DNA of 64,000 nucleotides, from assembly GCF_001482305.1 (NCBI RefSeq), contig NZ_LOHP01000061.1, positions 1 through 64,000 of the forward strand, given 5' to 3'. Below the pieces are notes generated by a model, which saw only the letters and a program-made list of their open reading frames with translations, did no database searches and had not been told where the DNA came from. Below are positions 1,021-5,265 of the stretch, piece after piece. Within the stretch, counting starts at the first letter, position 1. The number at the start of each line of letters is the position of its first letter. The translations under genes were made by a program, and so were the position numbers. Origin of the DNA: Leucobacter sp. G161 (GTDB lineage Bacteria > Actinomycetota > Actinomycetes > Actinomycetales > Microbacteriaceae).

Positions 1021-2907
1021 CTATGCCGGCGCAGCACCAATGCGCAAAGCGGTGATGAATTCCTTGTAGAGACCGTCGCGTGCGAGGAGCTCGTCGTGCG
1101 TTCCAGAGTCGCGCACACTGCCACGCTCAAGCAAGATGATCCGATCCGCCTCGAGCACGGTTGAGAGCCGGTGCGCAATCGTGACGACGGCACCGGTGCG
1201 GCTCGCGTCGCTAATGACGCGATGGATCGCAGCCTCGGTCACGCCGTCGAGCTGGGCGGTGACCTCGTCAAGGAGGAGCACGTCCGGGCGACGCACAAGC
1301 GCACGGGCGACGGCGAGGCGCTGTCGCTCTCCACCGGACAGATTCGTGTCTGCGACCTCGGTGTCGAGCCCCTCCGGAAGAGAACGGACTTTGTCGTCGA
1401 GCAACACTGCGGCGAGCGCAGCCCACGCCTCCTGGTCGCCGGCCCCCGCGCTGACGGCGTCACCGCCGCTATTTCCAGCGCGTGCGTCTCTGGAGGAGGG
1501 CGCCGTTCCCGTTCGGAAGAGCACGTTTTCTCGCACGGTGCCGGGAATGATCGGCGTCTCTTGCTCAACGTAGGCGATCCGCGACCGGACGTCGTCGATG
1601 CTGAGCTCGGTATACGGTACCCCGTCGAGTTCGAGGTGCCCGTTGCTCGGTTGAATGAAGCGCAGTAGCAGTGACAGCACTGTGGTTTTGCCGGCGCCCG
1701 AGGGCCCGACGAGCGCAATGTGTCCGGTGCGCGGGATGTCCAGGGTCACGTCGTGCAACGCGGACTGCGCGGCCCCTTCGTACGTCGCGGAGACTCCGCG
1801 CAGCGCGAGCACGGGCGCCCCCGCGCGGACAACGTGCGGGTGTGCCACGTTGGGGCGTGACGCTGTGTCTTCGAGCTCGAGGTGTTCGGTTTCCCTAATC
1901 CGCGCCGCGGCAGCGAGCCCCGTCTGTAGCGTTGCGAAGGCCCCGGCGAGGGCCGTGATCGGGTCGACGATGTTGAAGGCGTACAGCAGGAACGCGACGA
2001 GCGTCGACACGGCGAGCGTGCCGAGTGCGACCCTGCCTGCGCCGATGCCGAGGATCACGATGATCGCGAGCTGCATCCCGGCTCCGGCCAGGCTCCAGGA
2101 TGCGGCAGCGAACCAGACAGCGCGGACCGAGTGCTTCGCGGCTTCGTCGGCTTTCGCGACCACGCGCCCGATCTCCCTTGCCTCGGCACGGCTTGATTTC
2201 ACCGTGCGGAGGGCGCGCACGCCACCCTCCAGGGTTCCTCCGAGCTTGCCGATCGCGTCTTGCGCTCGCCGCTGCGCTCTTCCTATGTAGGGGACGAGCA
2301 CCCCGAACATGACGCCAACGATCACGAGCGCAAGCAGGGTGGTGAGTAGCAGCGGCCAGTCGAGGTACGCCATGAGGGCGATGGTGCCGATGAGGGACAC
2401 GGTGCCGTTCACGAGCTGCACGATGCTCGATGTGGCCGCCTCACGCAACAGCACAGTGTCGCTGGTGACGCGCGTCACGAGCTCGCCGGTTTTGAACCGC
2501 TGCACCTGCTCGAGTTTCGCCATGAAGAATCGCCTGATGAGCGAGTGCCTGGCGTCAAACACGATCCGCTCGGCGAGCTTCCCGAGGAGAACGGACTGGG
2601 CGAAGCCCGCAACTGTGCCGATCAGGAGCAGCCCGATGAGCAGCATGATCGGTCGGGCGAGACTCACGCCAGTTTCGAGCGAGTCAAGCACCCATTTCGT
2701 AGCGAGCGGGGTCGCCAGCATCGTTGCGGTCGCGAAGAGTCCGAGAAGCACCCCGGCCGCGAGCTTCGAGCGGTGTGGGCGGGAGTAGGACCACACGAGC
2801 GCGACCCCTGATCGGAACGGCACGCGATCGGGTGCCGTCTCCGACGTCGTCTCGGGCAGGATCTCGGGGGCAATGGGAGCGGACGGATCGTCTATGGGCT
2901 GTGGCAC
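1021..2907 (-). CDS. ABC exporter, fused permease and ATPase (MsbA/MDR-like)
   Basis: A half-transporter of 628 residues: an N-terminal six-helix membrane domain (about residues 45-335) followed by a nucleotide-binding domain (about 365-620). Walker A GPSGAGKTT is at 401-409, the Q-loop region YVEQE near 446-450, signature LSGGERQR at 523-530 and Walker B LLLDE near 544-548, so the ATPase looks intact. A Gly/Ala/Ser-rich insertion of about 25 residues (around 467-492) between the Q-loop and the helical subdomain is longer than usual. It probably works as a homodimer exporting a lipid, drug or peptide; the substrate cannot be told. There is no partner half-transporter beside it. The start follows an acidic, Pro-rich cytoplasmic tail. 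Confidence 0.92.
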   Translation of the reverse strand: MPQPIDDPSAPIAPEILPETTSETAPDRVPFRSGVALVWSYSRPHRSKLAAGVLLGLFATATMLATPLATKWVLDSLETGVSLARPIMLLIGLLLIGTVAGFAQSVLLGKLAERIVFDARHSLIRRFFMAKLEQVQRFKTGELVTRVTSDTVLLREAATSSIVQLVNGTVSLIGTIALMAYLDWPLLLTTLLALVIVGVMFGVLVPYIGRAQRRAQDAIGKLGGTLEGGVRALRTVKSSRAEAREIGRVVAKADEAAKHSVRAVWFAAASWSLAGAGMQLAIIVILGIGAGRVALGTLAVSTLVAFLLYAFNIVDPITALAGAFATLQTGLAAAARIRETEHLELEDTASRPNVAHPHVVRAGAPVLALRGVSATYEGAAQSALHDVTLDIPRTGHIALVGPSGAGKTTVLSLLLRFIQPSNGHLELDGVPYTELSIDDVRSRIAYVEQETPIIPGTVRENVLFRTGTAPSSRDARAGNSGGDAVSAGAGDQEAWAALAAVLLDDKVRSLPEGLDTEVADTNLSGGERQRLAVARALVRRPDVLLLDEVTAQLDGVTEAAIHRVISDASRTGAVVTIAHRLSTVLEADRIILLERGSVRDSGTHDELLARDGLYKEFITALRIGAAPA

Positions 2908-3062
2908 GGGGATCCTCTACGGGTGGGTGGCTTACGATTCGCGCGTGTCCCCCGGCCGCACTTTCACTGCCCGTCTAGCTAACAGTGCGCGTTGGTGCAC
3001 GTCAACGGTTCGGAGGCAGTTTCTGGAAGCTGCCCGCGGCGGAGCGCTGCCCAGCGGCGAAA

Positions 3063-3107
3063 GCCGCCCAGAGCAGCGCCGCCCAGAGCAGAGCCGCTCT
3101 GAGCAGA
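3063..3107 (+). promoter_or_regulatory. Three tandem 15-bp repeats upstream of the clpP pair (putative operator)
   Basis: Units lie at 3063-3077, 3078-3092 and 3093-3107. Units 1 and 2 share GCCGCCCAGAGCAG and unit 3 reads GCCGCTCTGAGCAG. Unit 3 holds the 9-bp palindrome GCTCTGAGC (3096-3104). The array ends 40 bp before the clpP ATG. A matching site (13 of 15 bases identical to unit 3) lies at 4784-4798 upstream of the XRE regulator gene. The best reading is binding sites for that regulator; this is inference from position and shared sequence. Confidence 0.6.
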
Positions 3108-3147
3108 TCCTGACTCGGCTACACAGATTGCGGTGCAGGCTGTGACT

Positions 3148-3819
3148 ATGACTGAATCTCCCACACCCCCAGTGTTCACGGAACCCCTCCGGCGCGAGTT
3201 ATTCGAGCAGCGTATCCTGGTGCTCGACGGCGCCCTCGACGACGACAACGGCGTCCTCCTCGCGGCACAACTCGTCGCGCTCGCCGCAGCTGATCGCTCG
3301 GCGGATATCTCGCTGTGGATCCATTCGCCGGGCGGATCGGTCCCGGCGATGCTCGCAATTCGCGATCTCATGCGGCTCGTTCCCAACGATGTATCGACGC
3401 TTGCGCTTGGAATCGCGTACAGCGCCGGCCAATTCCTGCTGACAGCGGGCACCCCGGGCAAACGCCGGCTGCTCCGCCACGCTCGGGTACTCATGCATCA
3501 GGGGTCGGCGGGGATCGGCGGCCCGACGGGCGATGTAGAGGTGCAGGCGGCGCACCTGCGGCACACGCGTGACACGGTGTTGCGGCTCACGAGCGAGGAC
3601 ACCGGGCAGCCGGTGGATCGCGTCTACGAGGACTCGCTGCACGACCACTGGTACGACGCTTCCGAAGCGATCGCGTACGGCTTCGCCGACGCCGTCGTCG
3701 AATCGTTCGCCGAGCTGCTGCCAGGCGGTGACGCCGGAACAGACACGGCAACCGGCTTCAGCGCCGCACCCGATGCACACCGCTCTCCTGCCCCGACACC
3801 AACGAAGGATCTCTCATGA
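3148..3819 (+). CDS. clpP: ClpP-family serine protease subunit (catalytic residues present)
   Basis: A ClpP-fold peptidase of 223 residues from ATG 3148 (an in-frame GTG at 3133 is possible). The nucleophile is Ser92 in GIAYSAGQF, where canonical ClpP has GQAASMGAF. His117 lies in VLMHQ and Asp162 in VYEDS, so the Ser-His-Asp triad is complete with near-normal spacing. The oxyanion-loop GGS is present (HSPGGSVPAM). The C-terminus has an extra Pro/Ala/Thr-rich tail. ClpP tetradecamers degrade unfolded or tagged proteins with a ClpX/ClpC unfoldase. It overlaps the next clpP-like gene by 4 bp, so the two are translated together, as in actinobacterial clpP1P2 or clpP3P4 pairs. No clpX or clpC lies nearby. 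Which of the Streptomyces pairs it matches needs a phylogeny. Confidence 0.88.
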   Translation: MTESPTPPVFTEPLRRELFEQRILVLDGALDDDNGVLLAAQLVALAAADRSADISLWIHSPGGSVPAMLAIRDLMRLVPNDVSTLALGIAYSAGQFLLTAGTPGKRRLLRHARVLMHQGSAGIGGPTGDVEVQAAHLRHTRDTVLRLTSEDTGQPVDRVYEDSLHDHWYDASEAIAYGFADAVVESFAELLPGGDAGTDTATGFSAAPDAHRSPAPTPTKDLS

Positions 3820-4409
3820 CTCAGAGCTATTCGATCCGGAACGTCGTCTCGCACAGTCCGCGCGGCGACCGCATCATGGATGTGTATTCGCACCTGCTCG
3901 CGGAGCGGATCATCTACCTCGGTACCCCCGTCGACCCGGGCGTCGCGAACGCGATCATCGCCCAACTGCTCTACCTGGACTCCGTGACGATTGACACCGA
4001 TATCAACGTCTATATCAACTGCTCCGGCGGCGATCCCAGCGCAATGCTCGCGATCTACGACACCATGCAGTTCGTCCGGTCGGGTATCGCAACGACGTGC
4101 GTCGGGCAGGCGGTCGGCGTCGGCGCGGTGCTCCTCGCCGCGGGAACCCCGGGCAGGCGCATGGCGTTGCCGCACACGCGGGTGATCCTGCACCAGCCGA
4201 GCAACGAGGAGCGGCGAGGCACGATCCCCGATCTCATTCTGCAGGCCGGCGAGGCAGTTCGGATCCGCGCCGATCTCGAGAACGTGCTGTCGCGGCACTC
4301 GGGGCAGCCCGCGAAGAAGCTCAGGCGGGACACGGATCACGATCGCGTGTTCACCGCGACCGAGGCGCGCGACTACGGGCTCCTCGACCACGTGATCGAG
4401 CAGCAGTAG
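3816..4409 (+). CDS. ClpP-like subunit lacking the nucleophilic serine (ClpR-like)
   Basis: 197 residues, ATG overlapping the stop of the upstream clpP (ATGA). It has the ClpP fold markers: INCSGGDPSAM oxyanion loop, LAAGTPGRR, LHQPS with His126, and RRDTDHD with Asp172. However, the nucleophile motif GQAASMGA reads GQAVGVGA: the Ser position is Gly101, codon GGC at 4116-4118. His and Asp are kept and the gene is otherwise intact, so this looks like a selected non-catalytic subunit, comparable in principle to cyanobacterial/plastid ClpR, and not a decaying gene. It probably forms a mixed ring with the upstream subunit and may shape substrate entry or the chaperone interface. That role is inference. 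Confidence 0.87.
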   Translation: MTQSYSIRNVVSHSPRGDRIMDVYSHLLAERIIYLGTPVDPGVANAIIAQLLYLDSVTIDTDINVYINCSGGDPSAMLAIYDTMQFVRSGIATTCVGQAVGVGAVLLAAGTPGRRMALPHTRVILHQPSNEERRGTIPDLILQAGEAVRIRADLENVLSRHSGQPAKKLRRDTDHDRVFTATEARDYGLLDHVIEQQ

Positions 4410-4419
4410 CCGCCGCGGG

Positions 4420-4743
4420 CTACGCGGCCAGCATGTAGGCAGCGCGCGGGCCGGATGCGGCGGCAGCGCGCAACCCCGCGGTGACCCCGTCAGTGAGATC
4501 GACAAGCGTGACGTCGAGCGCACCCGCGACCGCGTCGATCATCTCGCTCGACGGATCCTTCGCTCCGCGTTCCATCTCCGAGAGGTACTGCGGAGAGACG
4601 CCGGCTCTCGCCGCTGTTTCCCCGAGCGTTTCGTCCCGCTCGTGCCGGAGCCGGCGCAGCTCCGCTCCGAGCATGTGCCGCCACAGCGGGGCCGGTGGTG
4701 CAACGCGTGGGCGCTTCGCTTTCTGGGCATCGTTGTCAGCCAT
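4420..4743 (-). CDS. XRE-family regulator of the PopR/ClgR type, ending in LAA
   Basis: From ATG 4743 the protein has 107 residues (an upstream GTG at 4779 would add 12). A helix-turn-helix of the HTH_3 type covers about residues 28-82: LGAELRRLRHERDETLG, then TAARAGVSPQYLSEMERG, then SSEMIDAVAGAL. This is the pattern of ClgR/PopR, which control clp genes in Streptomyces and corynebacteria. The C-terminus reads AAYMLAA. In Streptomyces PopR and ClgR the terminal alanines make the protein a Clp substrate, and LAA also ends the ssrA tag, so this regulator is likely degraded by a Clp protease. It is convergent with the clpP pair (stops 10 bp apart). Its promoter region holds a motif shared with the clpP promoter. 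Confidence 0.82.
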   Translation of the reverse strand: MADNDAQKAKRPRVAPPAPLWRHMLGAELRRLRHERDETLGETAARAGVSPQYLSEMERGAKDPSSEMIDAVAGALDVTLVDLTDGVTAGLRAAAASGPRAAYMLAA

Positions 4744-4783
4744 ACCCGATCGTAACCCGGGCTGGCGCGCACACAGCACGGTC

Positions 4784-4798
4784 TCCGCTCAGAGCAGA
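4784..4798. promoter_or_regulatory. Putative autoregulatory site matching the clpP promoter repeats
   Basis: TCCGCTCAGAGCAGA lies in the 75-bp divergent interval between the XRE regulator (ATG 4743) and the SRPBCC gene (ATG 4819). It matches unit 3 of the 3063-3107 array at 13 of 15 positions and contains the 9-bp palindrome GCTCAGAGC (4787-4795). A site here could control both divergent genes. Confidence 0.5.
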
Positions 4799-4818
4799 AC
4801 GGATGCGAGACTGTCCCT

Positions 4819-5265
4819 ATGCCGAGTTCCTTCGAAGTGGTGACACGCGCCACCGTGCCGCCCGAGGCGCTCTTCGACGCGTCCCTGAGCGTCGACGAAC
4901 ACGTGACCTCGCTCGCTCACTCCGGGGAGCGCGCGATCGCCGGGGTCACAGTGGGAACACTGGGTCTTGGTGGCGTCGTGACGTGGCGGGCGCGGCACTT
5001 CGGGATCTGGTTCACGATGATGGTGCGGATCACCGCACTGGATCGACCGTACTACTTCGTCGACGAGCAGCAGCGGGGCCCGTTCAAGGCGTTCCGGCAC
5101 GAGCACACATTCGCACGGGATGGAGGGGAGACGGTCATGACCGACAGAATCACCGTCGCGTCGCCCGTGTTCGGCAGGCTGGCGGAGCGACTCGTGCTCG
5201 TGCCCTATCTGCGCCGGCTGATCCGCACCCGCAACGTGCACCTCGTGGCGACCGTCACCTCGTAG
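4819..5265 (+). CDS. SRPBCC-superfamily (START/polyketide-cyclase-like) protein
   Basis: 148 residues. The chain has the layout of small SRPBCC proteins: an N-terminal beta-strand region (FEVVTRATVPPEALFDAS), a central WRARHFGIWFTM segment, a strand pair with YYFVDEQQRGPFKAFRHEHTF, and a C-terminal helix (RLAERLVLVPYLRRLIRTRN). The family binds hydrophobic ligands in a cavity. Close relatives are often annotated as cyclase/dehydrase or as a cell-division inhibitor, but without proof. It is divergent from the PopR-like regulator and 75 bp from it. The ligand is unknown. Confidence 0.75.
   Translation: MPSSFEVVTRATVPPEALFDASLSVDEHVTSLAHSGERAIAGVTVGTLGLGGVVTWRARHFGIWFTMMVRITALDRPYYFVDEQQRGPFKAFRHEHTFARDGGETVMTDRITVASPVFGRLAERLVLVPYLRRLIRTRNVHLVATVTS

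Follow-up and report, generated by a model that had tools for sequence, protein, structure and literature searches.

Why would an actinobacterium with a housekeeping pair of clpP genes keep a second pair, one member of which has lost its nucleophile, beside a regulator of its own? The question is raised by a locus of Leucobacter sp. G161, in the stretch of 64,000 nucleotides (contig NZ_LOHP01000061.1) that was analysed here as a whole and that we call the window. All the elements listed by a first-pass annotation of this DNA were found in place: a two-gene clpP operon, a convergent XRE regulator ending in LAA, and a 15-bp motif present three times before the operon and once before the regulator. 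The order of the genes, their tree, the tail of the regulator and the operator all agree in making this locus orthologous to clpP3-clpP4/popR of Streptomyces, a type of locus that is already known. The parallel with PopR that had been drawn at first sight turns out to be real orthology, since operon, convergent regulator, LAA tail and tandem 15-bp operator are common to both genera. In Leucobacter, this orthology, the loss of the ClpP4 nucleophile, the operator and the tail are observed directly.

The answer that we favour, with a probability of roughly 0.8, is that the locus encodes an actinobacterial backup Clp protease with a dedicated activator, popR, the catalytic part falling to ClpP3, docking to ClpP4, and the sensing of housekeeping Clp to PopR. 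ClpP3 would carry all catalysis, and ClpP4 would be a structural, ATPase-docking pseudo-subunit. The most likely assembly would be a mixed barrel in which one ring, of ClpP3, is active and the other, of ClpP4, is inactive, the pocket and axial loop of the latter receiving ClpX or ClpC. As long as ClpXP1P2 works, PopR would be destroyed via its ssrA-like LAA tail, and the operon would remain silent; a block or an overload of ClpP1P2 would let PopR accumulate, bind the tandem 15-bp palindromes and turn clpP3P4 on. On the single palindrome before its own gene it would probably activate itself, and this autoactivation would sharpen the switch in the lineages that have a popR-side operator.

Identity of the locus

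The Leucobacter genome has four ClpP genes, arranged as two pairs on two contigs. The housekeeping pair, with complete triads in both genes, lies on the separate contig; its neighbours, judged by eye, are trigger factor upstream and clpX downstream. The pair of the window, whose reading frames overlap in ATGA, and its regulator are laid out as follows.

3148-3819, plus strand: clpP3 orthologue (ClpP-A), 223 amino acids, predicted ClpP1-like catalytic subunit; Pfam CLP_protease, E 1e-48
3421-3423, 3496-3498 and 3643-3645, plus strand: codons of S92, H117 and D166, the intact ClpP3 triad, by codon check
3816-4409, plus strand: clpP4 orthologue (ClpP-B), 197 amino acids, predicted ClpP2-like pseudo-subunit; Pfam CLP_protease, E 2.1e-60
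4116-4118, plus strand: Gly101 (GGC) at the nucleophile position of ClpP4; H126 and D176 are kept
4420-4743, minus strand: popR orthologue, XRE/helix-turn-helix (HTH) regulator and ClgR paralogue, 107 amino acids, convergent with the operon; Pfam HTH_31/HTH_3
4423-4431, minus strand: codons of the C-terminal LAA of the regulator, a predicted ssrA-like degron; tail AAYMLAA

A ClpP1-like first gene and a ClpP2-like second gene thus form one operon, distinct from the housekeeping pair, and adjoin an XRE/HTH regulator related to ClgR. The phylogeny against backup and housekeeping ClpP proteins, which had been proposed as a check, bears out the assignment. In a tree of 126 rows, the ClpP1-like and ClpP2-like halves separate at 100/100; ClpP-A is grouped with the first-gene proteins of backup loci, which a 100/99 split divides from housekeeping ClpP1; ClpP-B falls inside the ClpP4 group (94/72), as do the B proteins of Streptomyces-like genomes; and both stand apart from the genome's own housekeeping pair. 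The midpoint root of this tree is meaningless, and the conclusions rest on its splits. One row (L223) is in a wrong reading frame and has a very long branch, and three housekeeping extractions (L225, L229 and L243) gave a neighbouring paralogue; pooled housekeeping values, mixed on that account, were left out of the residue and substitution comparisons below.

The best NCBIfam model for the regulator is ClgR (NF041677), at 54 bits, well below the cut-off of 170 bits, so that it does not count as a member of that family; the ClgR of the same genome, at 103 bits, is also under the cut-off. The nearest solved structure is that of ClgR (3f51, E 2.6e-13), and the regulator matches the ClgR of its own genome at 44% over 68 amino acids.

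The comparison with Streptomyces relies on several genomes. Five Streptomyces-like genomes that were searched have four to five ClpP each, the number reported for Streptomyces (PMC9765437). A search of plasmid records led to Streptomyces fungicidicus, whose ClpP4 is 87.6% identical and whose clpP, clpP and HTH genes follow each other in the same order, the regulator ending in HDGLCLAA. The DNA upstream, TCTGCCCGTGGCGAATCTGCCACGGGCAGA, is an exact fit to the published PopR site, TCTGCC-3N-GGCGAATCTGCC-3N-GGCAGA (PMC9775585): the operator reads TCTGCC-CGT-GGCGAATCTGCC-ACG-GGCAGA. Among ten Streptomyces-like loci this site is exact in two and present in a looser form in seven more. The likeness to the Streptomyces system thus extends to gene order and convergent regulator (seen in S. 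fungicidicus), terminal AA, tandem 15-bp operator and position in the tree. The plasmid of S. fungicidicus that bears the whole clpP3-clpP4-popR locus is 927 kb long (NZ_CP023408.1, L287).

Within the genus, the clpP3-clpP4 pair is present in nine of 54 genomes, our own included, and the regulator stands in the identical arrangement in all nine. ClpP4 relatives occur widely among actinobacteria: of 423 pattern matches in named genomes, 394 encode one, and the best 80 of these 394 were kept. Among 398 Microbacteriaceae genomes, 60 pass 1e-62, a few of them possibly with a housekeeping ClpP2; in one Microbacteriaceae genome, two contigs each hold a strong ClpP4 match (G316:C30 and G316:C65). A scan of the whole class had a looser threshold that admits housekeeping ClpP2, and gives no usable frequency.

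The best 80 named matches, together with the best matches and chosen stretches of other genomes, gave 168 ClpP3P4 loci. All were found through ClpP4, some come from near-identical genomes, and close relatives are over-represented, so that the triad counts given below are no population rate. Before any count, we dropped L217-L221, housekeeping pairs by the tree, and L053-L056, which are the same genomes as L045 and L048-L050; the triad of L151 is not readable. Gene A precedes gene B on one strand in 168 of 168 loci. A convergent regulator follows downstream in 153 loci; one locus is irregular (L088), and no regulator was recognised in 14, four of which had less than 400 nucleotides of downstream DNA left. 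One typical actinobacterial clpP3P4-popR locus (L113) comes from a metagenome-assembled genome titled Acidobacteria, perhaps a binning error.

The regulator, its tail and its operators

The sites before the two promoters, predicted from sequence, are the following.

3063-3077, plus strand: predicted PopR-type operator, distal copy (-85)
3078-3092, plus strand: predicted PopR-type operator, middle copy (-70)
3093-3107, plus strand: predicted PopR-type operator, proximal copy (-55)
3029-3043, plus strand: possible weak fourth copy, uncertain, outside the 15-nucleotide register; matrix score 13.3
4784-4798, minus strand: predicted PopR-type operator (-55) before popR, top-scoring in the window
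4749-4754, minus strand: TACGAT, putative -10-like hexamer, 5 nucleotides before the popR ATG
3136-3141, plus strand: CAGGCT, putative weak -10-like hexamer, 6 nucleotides before the clpP3 ATG

The 15-nucleotide direct repeats start at 3063, 3078 and 3093, with spacings of 15 and 15, and the related site occupies 4784-4798. The short pattern CGCYCAGAGCAG, with two mismatches, does not separate these sites from the background of the window (30 matches for 29 expected). A weight matrix was built from 139 clpP3 promoters of other genera, near-identical genomes included. Applied to both strands of the 64 kb, its top five sites are 4784, 3093, 3078, 3063 and, weakly, 3029; no other site scores above 10.6. 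Scored in tandem, the repeats reach 33.6 at 3078 and 30.0 at 3063; when the whole window was resampled 20 times under a dinucleotide model, the tandem score never exceeded 16.4. Taken singly, only 4784 (21.2) beats the best resampled site (18.0), and the significance of the other sites rests on their tandem arrangement. The site at 3029 is also below the best resampled one, and an extra site of this kind is absent among the top four matrix sites in the other eight loci of the genus.

Using the Streptomyces consensus alone, tandem palindromes (TCTGCC-N3-GGC...) are recognised before clpP3 in the window (3063-3107), at a level matched by none of 200 shuffles; the popR site of the window is not significant under this consensus (p 0.135). 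Under the same consensus, 149 of 155 loci show a tandem with 15-nucleotide spacing before clpP3 at p <= 0.05, and 143 do so at p <= 0.01. The matrix, which was not trained on popR promoters, detects a popR-side site at p <= 0.05 in 128 of 145 loci outside the genus, a set that includes near-identical genomes.

The positions of these sites are stable within Leucobacter. The popR operator stands at -55 or -56 of the ATG in nine of nine loci, window included; that of L044, a gene with a long N-terminus, is outside the stretch searched with the matrix (p 0.96) and was seen by comparing the promoters of the genus loci. The clpP3 operator is at -70 of the ATG in all nine, the proximal site at -55 scores above 8 in eight and is weak in L046, and the third site, at -85, exists only in the window and in L047. 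The -10-like position of popR reads TACGAT in six loci, TAGCAT in two and TAGCCT in one, and that of clpP3 contains AGGCT in seven of nine. A TACGAT 5 nucleotides before the ATG suggests a leaderless popR transcript. From the layout common to both promoters, we infer that PopR would activate both.

Elsewhere in the nine genus genomes, the exact palindrome pattern has two to eight matches each, fewer than its reversed control in eight of the nine. The popR site is among these matches in every genome, and three further matches recur, each in two genomes (G016 and G032, G003 and G018, G000 and G018); these matches speak neither for nor against a wider regulon.

The housekeeping genes have their own signal: a ClgR-type GTTCGC-N5-GCG lies shortly upstream of clpP1 (L051:6039-6052, contig 88), the sole one in 12 kb, and the pattern is absent from positions 2900-4900 of the window, which argues for separate circuits. 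Both circuits have a paralogous regulator acting before a clpP pair, but they differ in operator and in tail: the ClgR of this genome (L052:2946-3275, contig 17) ends in GSELISR, without the terminal alanines, and its turnover may differ. The ClgR of Streptomyces is mentioned as having an alanine tail (PMC9775585).

The tail of PopR is the second shared signal. LAA closes the regulator in nine of nine genus loci, window included, and among 135 unique regulators 124 end in LAA and 131 in AA. Other open reading frames of at least 150 codons from the same loci, mechanically defined, end in LAA in 0 of 486 cases and in AA in 8; mechanical frames of the window end in neither (0 of 52 for each). These controls rule out a chance origin. 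Conservation is much higher in the last three residues than in the preceding ones, and the consensus A-[Y/L/F]-A-L-A-A stands out against a variable linker. The tag encoded by Leucobacter's own transfer-messenger RNA is ATSKRTDFALAA, which ends in FALAA, and three of the nine Leucobacter regulators have an identical FALAA terminus. The tail is thus a predicted ssrA-like degron, and PopR a predicted target of degradation.

In Streptomyces, housekeeping ClpXP1P2 is reported to degrade PopR and thereby to silence clpP3P4 (PMC9765437, PMC12607617). With the housekeeping protease as the one reported to destroy PopR, the loop as published amounts to a backup switch that responds to the activity of housekeeping Clp. 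By analogy, the Leucobacter locus would behave in the same way. The first-pass annotation had conjectured a feedback loop in which Clp activity sets the level of its own regulator. The site before the regulator fits feedback; the proteolytic half of the conjecture does not agree with Streptomyces, where the protease reported to destroy PopR is ClpXP1P2 and not the product of the operon.

There is nevertheless a small chance that the loop is closed, and that ClpP3P4 itself degrades PopR and so limits its own activator: the LAA tail has the ssrA-like consensus, and with an operator before popR the loop could be short. However, the loss of PopR in Streptomyces is traced to ClpP1P2, and ClpP3P4 is expressed in clpP1P2 mutants (PMC9765437, PMC12607617), where a closed loop predicts self-shut-off, although a role as a brake could remain.

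We hold it to be somewhat less probable still that the regulator represses both promoters, in which case Clp proteolysis would induce the operon. A single strong palindrome before a gene's own start is typical of autorepressors, and we found neither Leucobacter transcription data nor an open-access paper containing both Leucobacter and ClpP. On the other hand, the Streptomyces orthologue is reported as an activator of clpP3P4 (PMC9765437, PMC12607617, PMC9775585), the operators, which begin at -55, -70 and -85, lie ahead of the -10-like hexamers rather than over them, and the clpP3 hexamer is poor, as would be the case in an activator-dependent promoter.

The second subunit and its lost active site

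Contrary to its neighbour, the second gene does not encode the Ser-His-Asp of an active ClpP: Gly101 replaces the serine, and glycine occupies this position in nine of nine Leucobacter. The triads of 153 unique ClpP4 sequences are A-H-D (92), G-H-D (26), S-H-D (17), S-G-D (10), E-H-H (3), and, once each, A-D-D, D-H-D, F-H-N and W-H-T, one being unreadable. The triad is thus broken in 135 of the 153, whereas that of ClpP3 is S-H-D in 155 of 155 unique sequences. In Streptomyces it is the catalytic histidine that became glycine, in all ten Streptomyces-like loci and in S. fungicidicus; an alignment error at this position was ruled out by direct reading of the residues and by the S. fungicidicus sequence. 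The idea that the novelty of the locus lay in its combination with a subunit that lacks the nucleophile is not supported: a broken ClpP4 is common among the sampled relatives, and the ClpP4 of Streptomyces is itself without the catalytic histidine.

How often was the site lost? A tree of 92 rows was computed with the catalytic columns removed: two housekeeping outgroup rows and 90 ClpP4, namely all unique sequences other than A-H-D and a random 30 of the A-H-D ones. It requires at least seven changes between intact and broken. Rooted on housekeeping ClpP2, these read as four losses (a large Ala/Gly clade, the Streptomyces-like change of His to Gly, an E-H-H clade and a W/F/G clade) and three returns of serine (L085, L119 and L124). 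This tree is a quick one, with a single support value and many open forks, and another root turns some losses into gains. The same subunit appears to have lost its active site several separate times in related actinobacteria, a repetition that suggests a spare protease built for one-sided cutting. The three sequences with serine inside the Ala/Gly clade, from Frigoribacterium (L085), a Microbacterium metagenome-assembled genome (L119) and Actinomadura hibisca (L124), have possibly regained catalysis. Unusual triads are Glu-His-His (L205-L207), Trp-His-Thr (L208) and Phe-His-Asn (L216).

Of 168 loci, 166 and 168 retain the oxyanion glycines. The ATPase pocket suggests a division of labour: ClpP4 has Tyr at the second position in 164 of 168 and Tyr or Phe at the third in 143, and ClpP3 has Trp at the second in 143 and Leu at the third in 138. 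Ahead of the first Arg-Ile common to both proteins, ClpP3 has 9 fewer N-terminal residues than ClpP4. In Mycobacterium and Streptomyces, ClpP2 alone is reported to dock the ATPases (PMC4416901, PMC9765437), and in Streptomyces its serine is described as dispensable, its pocket not (PMC9765437, PMC12607617). The loss of the triad in a ClpP2-like backup partner is thus easy to understand. The parallel with these ClpP1P2 cores lies in the ATPase-docking ClpP2-type subunit, ClpP1 cutting the substrates in Streptomyces and doing most of the processing in Mycobacterium (PMC4416901, PMC9765437); the difference is that Streptomyces ClpP1 and ClpP2 are described with full triads, and the docking-type subunit of Leucobacter has lost its own.

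As in the barrel proposed here, an active subunit and an inactive ClpP-like partner share one core in the cyanobacterial ClpP3/ClpR, where ClpR reportedly has no triad and alternates with ClpP3 inside the rings (PMC4673316). Contrary to ClpR, the ClpP4 of Leucobacter is ClpP2-like and keeps two residues of the triad; judged by its sequence it is inactive, and it is placed beside actinobacterial ClpP2 in a tree without a ClpR row.

Could ClpP4, with or without ClpP3, instead mix into the housekeeping core and tune or poison ClpP1P2, as the ClpP-ADEP (acyldepsipeptide) of Streptomyces hawaiiensis does? Being ClpP2-like it could pair with ClpP1, and ClpP-ADEP is reported to swap subunits (PMC12607617). 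But clpP3 adjoins clpP4 in every locus of the sample, and its triad is kept without exception, which indicates that an independent catalytic core is maintained; we regard mixing as improbable.

That ClpP4 is merely decaying and functionless, as the lost nucleophile and a protein evolution somewhat faster than that of ClpP3 could suggest, is very improbable, given that the gene is open and full-length in the nine genus loci, has long invariant stretches, is retained across many families, and is under purifying selection, with a ratio of nonsynonymous to synonymous substitution of 0.08-0.33 over 36 Leucobacter pairs, synonymous sites being near saturation in many.

The backup protease in its family

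Several observations weigh against the reading of the locus as a backup Clp protease switched on by PopR. Its presence in only nine of 54 genus genomes makes the locus dispensable, and ten pairs lack a recognisable popR although 1.4 kb or more of the DNA downstream was covered (L058, L059, L112, L139, L149, L150, L163, L164, L165 and L171). The support of the ClpP4 group (94/72) is only moderate. The regulator tail of the window, YMLAA, is a slight variant of the more frequent ALAA. The evidence for the popR-side operator is weaker than that for the clpP3 tandem: the single site is detected by the Streptomyces consensus in only 66 of 144 promoters at p <= 0.05, and the matrix finds none in eight of ten Streptomyces-like loci, which places autoregulation outside the published model and sets Leucobacter, where the operator is present, apart. 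With a complete triad in 17 of 153 ClpP4, inactivity is not obligatory for the family, and three of the nine Leucobacter ClpP4 have Thr as the second pocket residue, which makes the case for docking weaker in those proteins. Lastly, the "ClpP4" and "ClpP5" of Streptomyces cattleya, each co-expressed with ClpX in Escherichia coli, are reported to have shortened the half-life of RelB (PMC4989188); they have adjacent locus tags and are perhaps a clpP3-clpP4 pair, and the ClpP of E. coli may have been present.

Searches of open-access full text, which are not proof of absence, returned no report of the loss of the ClpP4 triad across lineages, of the change of His to Gly in Streptomyces ClpP4, or of the popR-side operator. 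The broader proposal is that the backup Clp was driven at least four separate times, through different residues, to a core with one active ring, and that with the probable autoactivation of PopR it forms a bistable emergency switch for a half-active protease; we give this even odds.

If it is true, a half-active protease would behave differently: it could, for example, be slower, yield products of another length, and have one ring without the serine targeted by inhibitors. ClpP is an antibiotic target, and clpP3P4 is described in Streptomyces as the escape route upon loss of ClpP1 under ADEP selection (PMC12607617). The reason for inactive subunits is touched on for the ClpP3/ClpR cores of cyanobacteria (PMC4673316). 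Should the backup core be catalytically one-sided in many lineages, with its switch wired as here, why it replaces the housekeeping core only partly would become directly testable; the repeated loss of the site in ClpP4, and its absence in ClpP3, would be a natural experiment on inactive subunits in mixed Clp cores.

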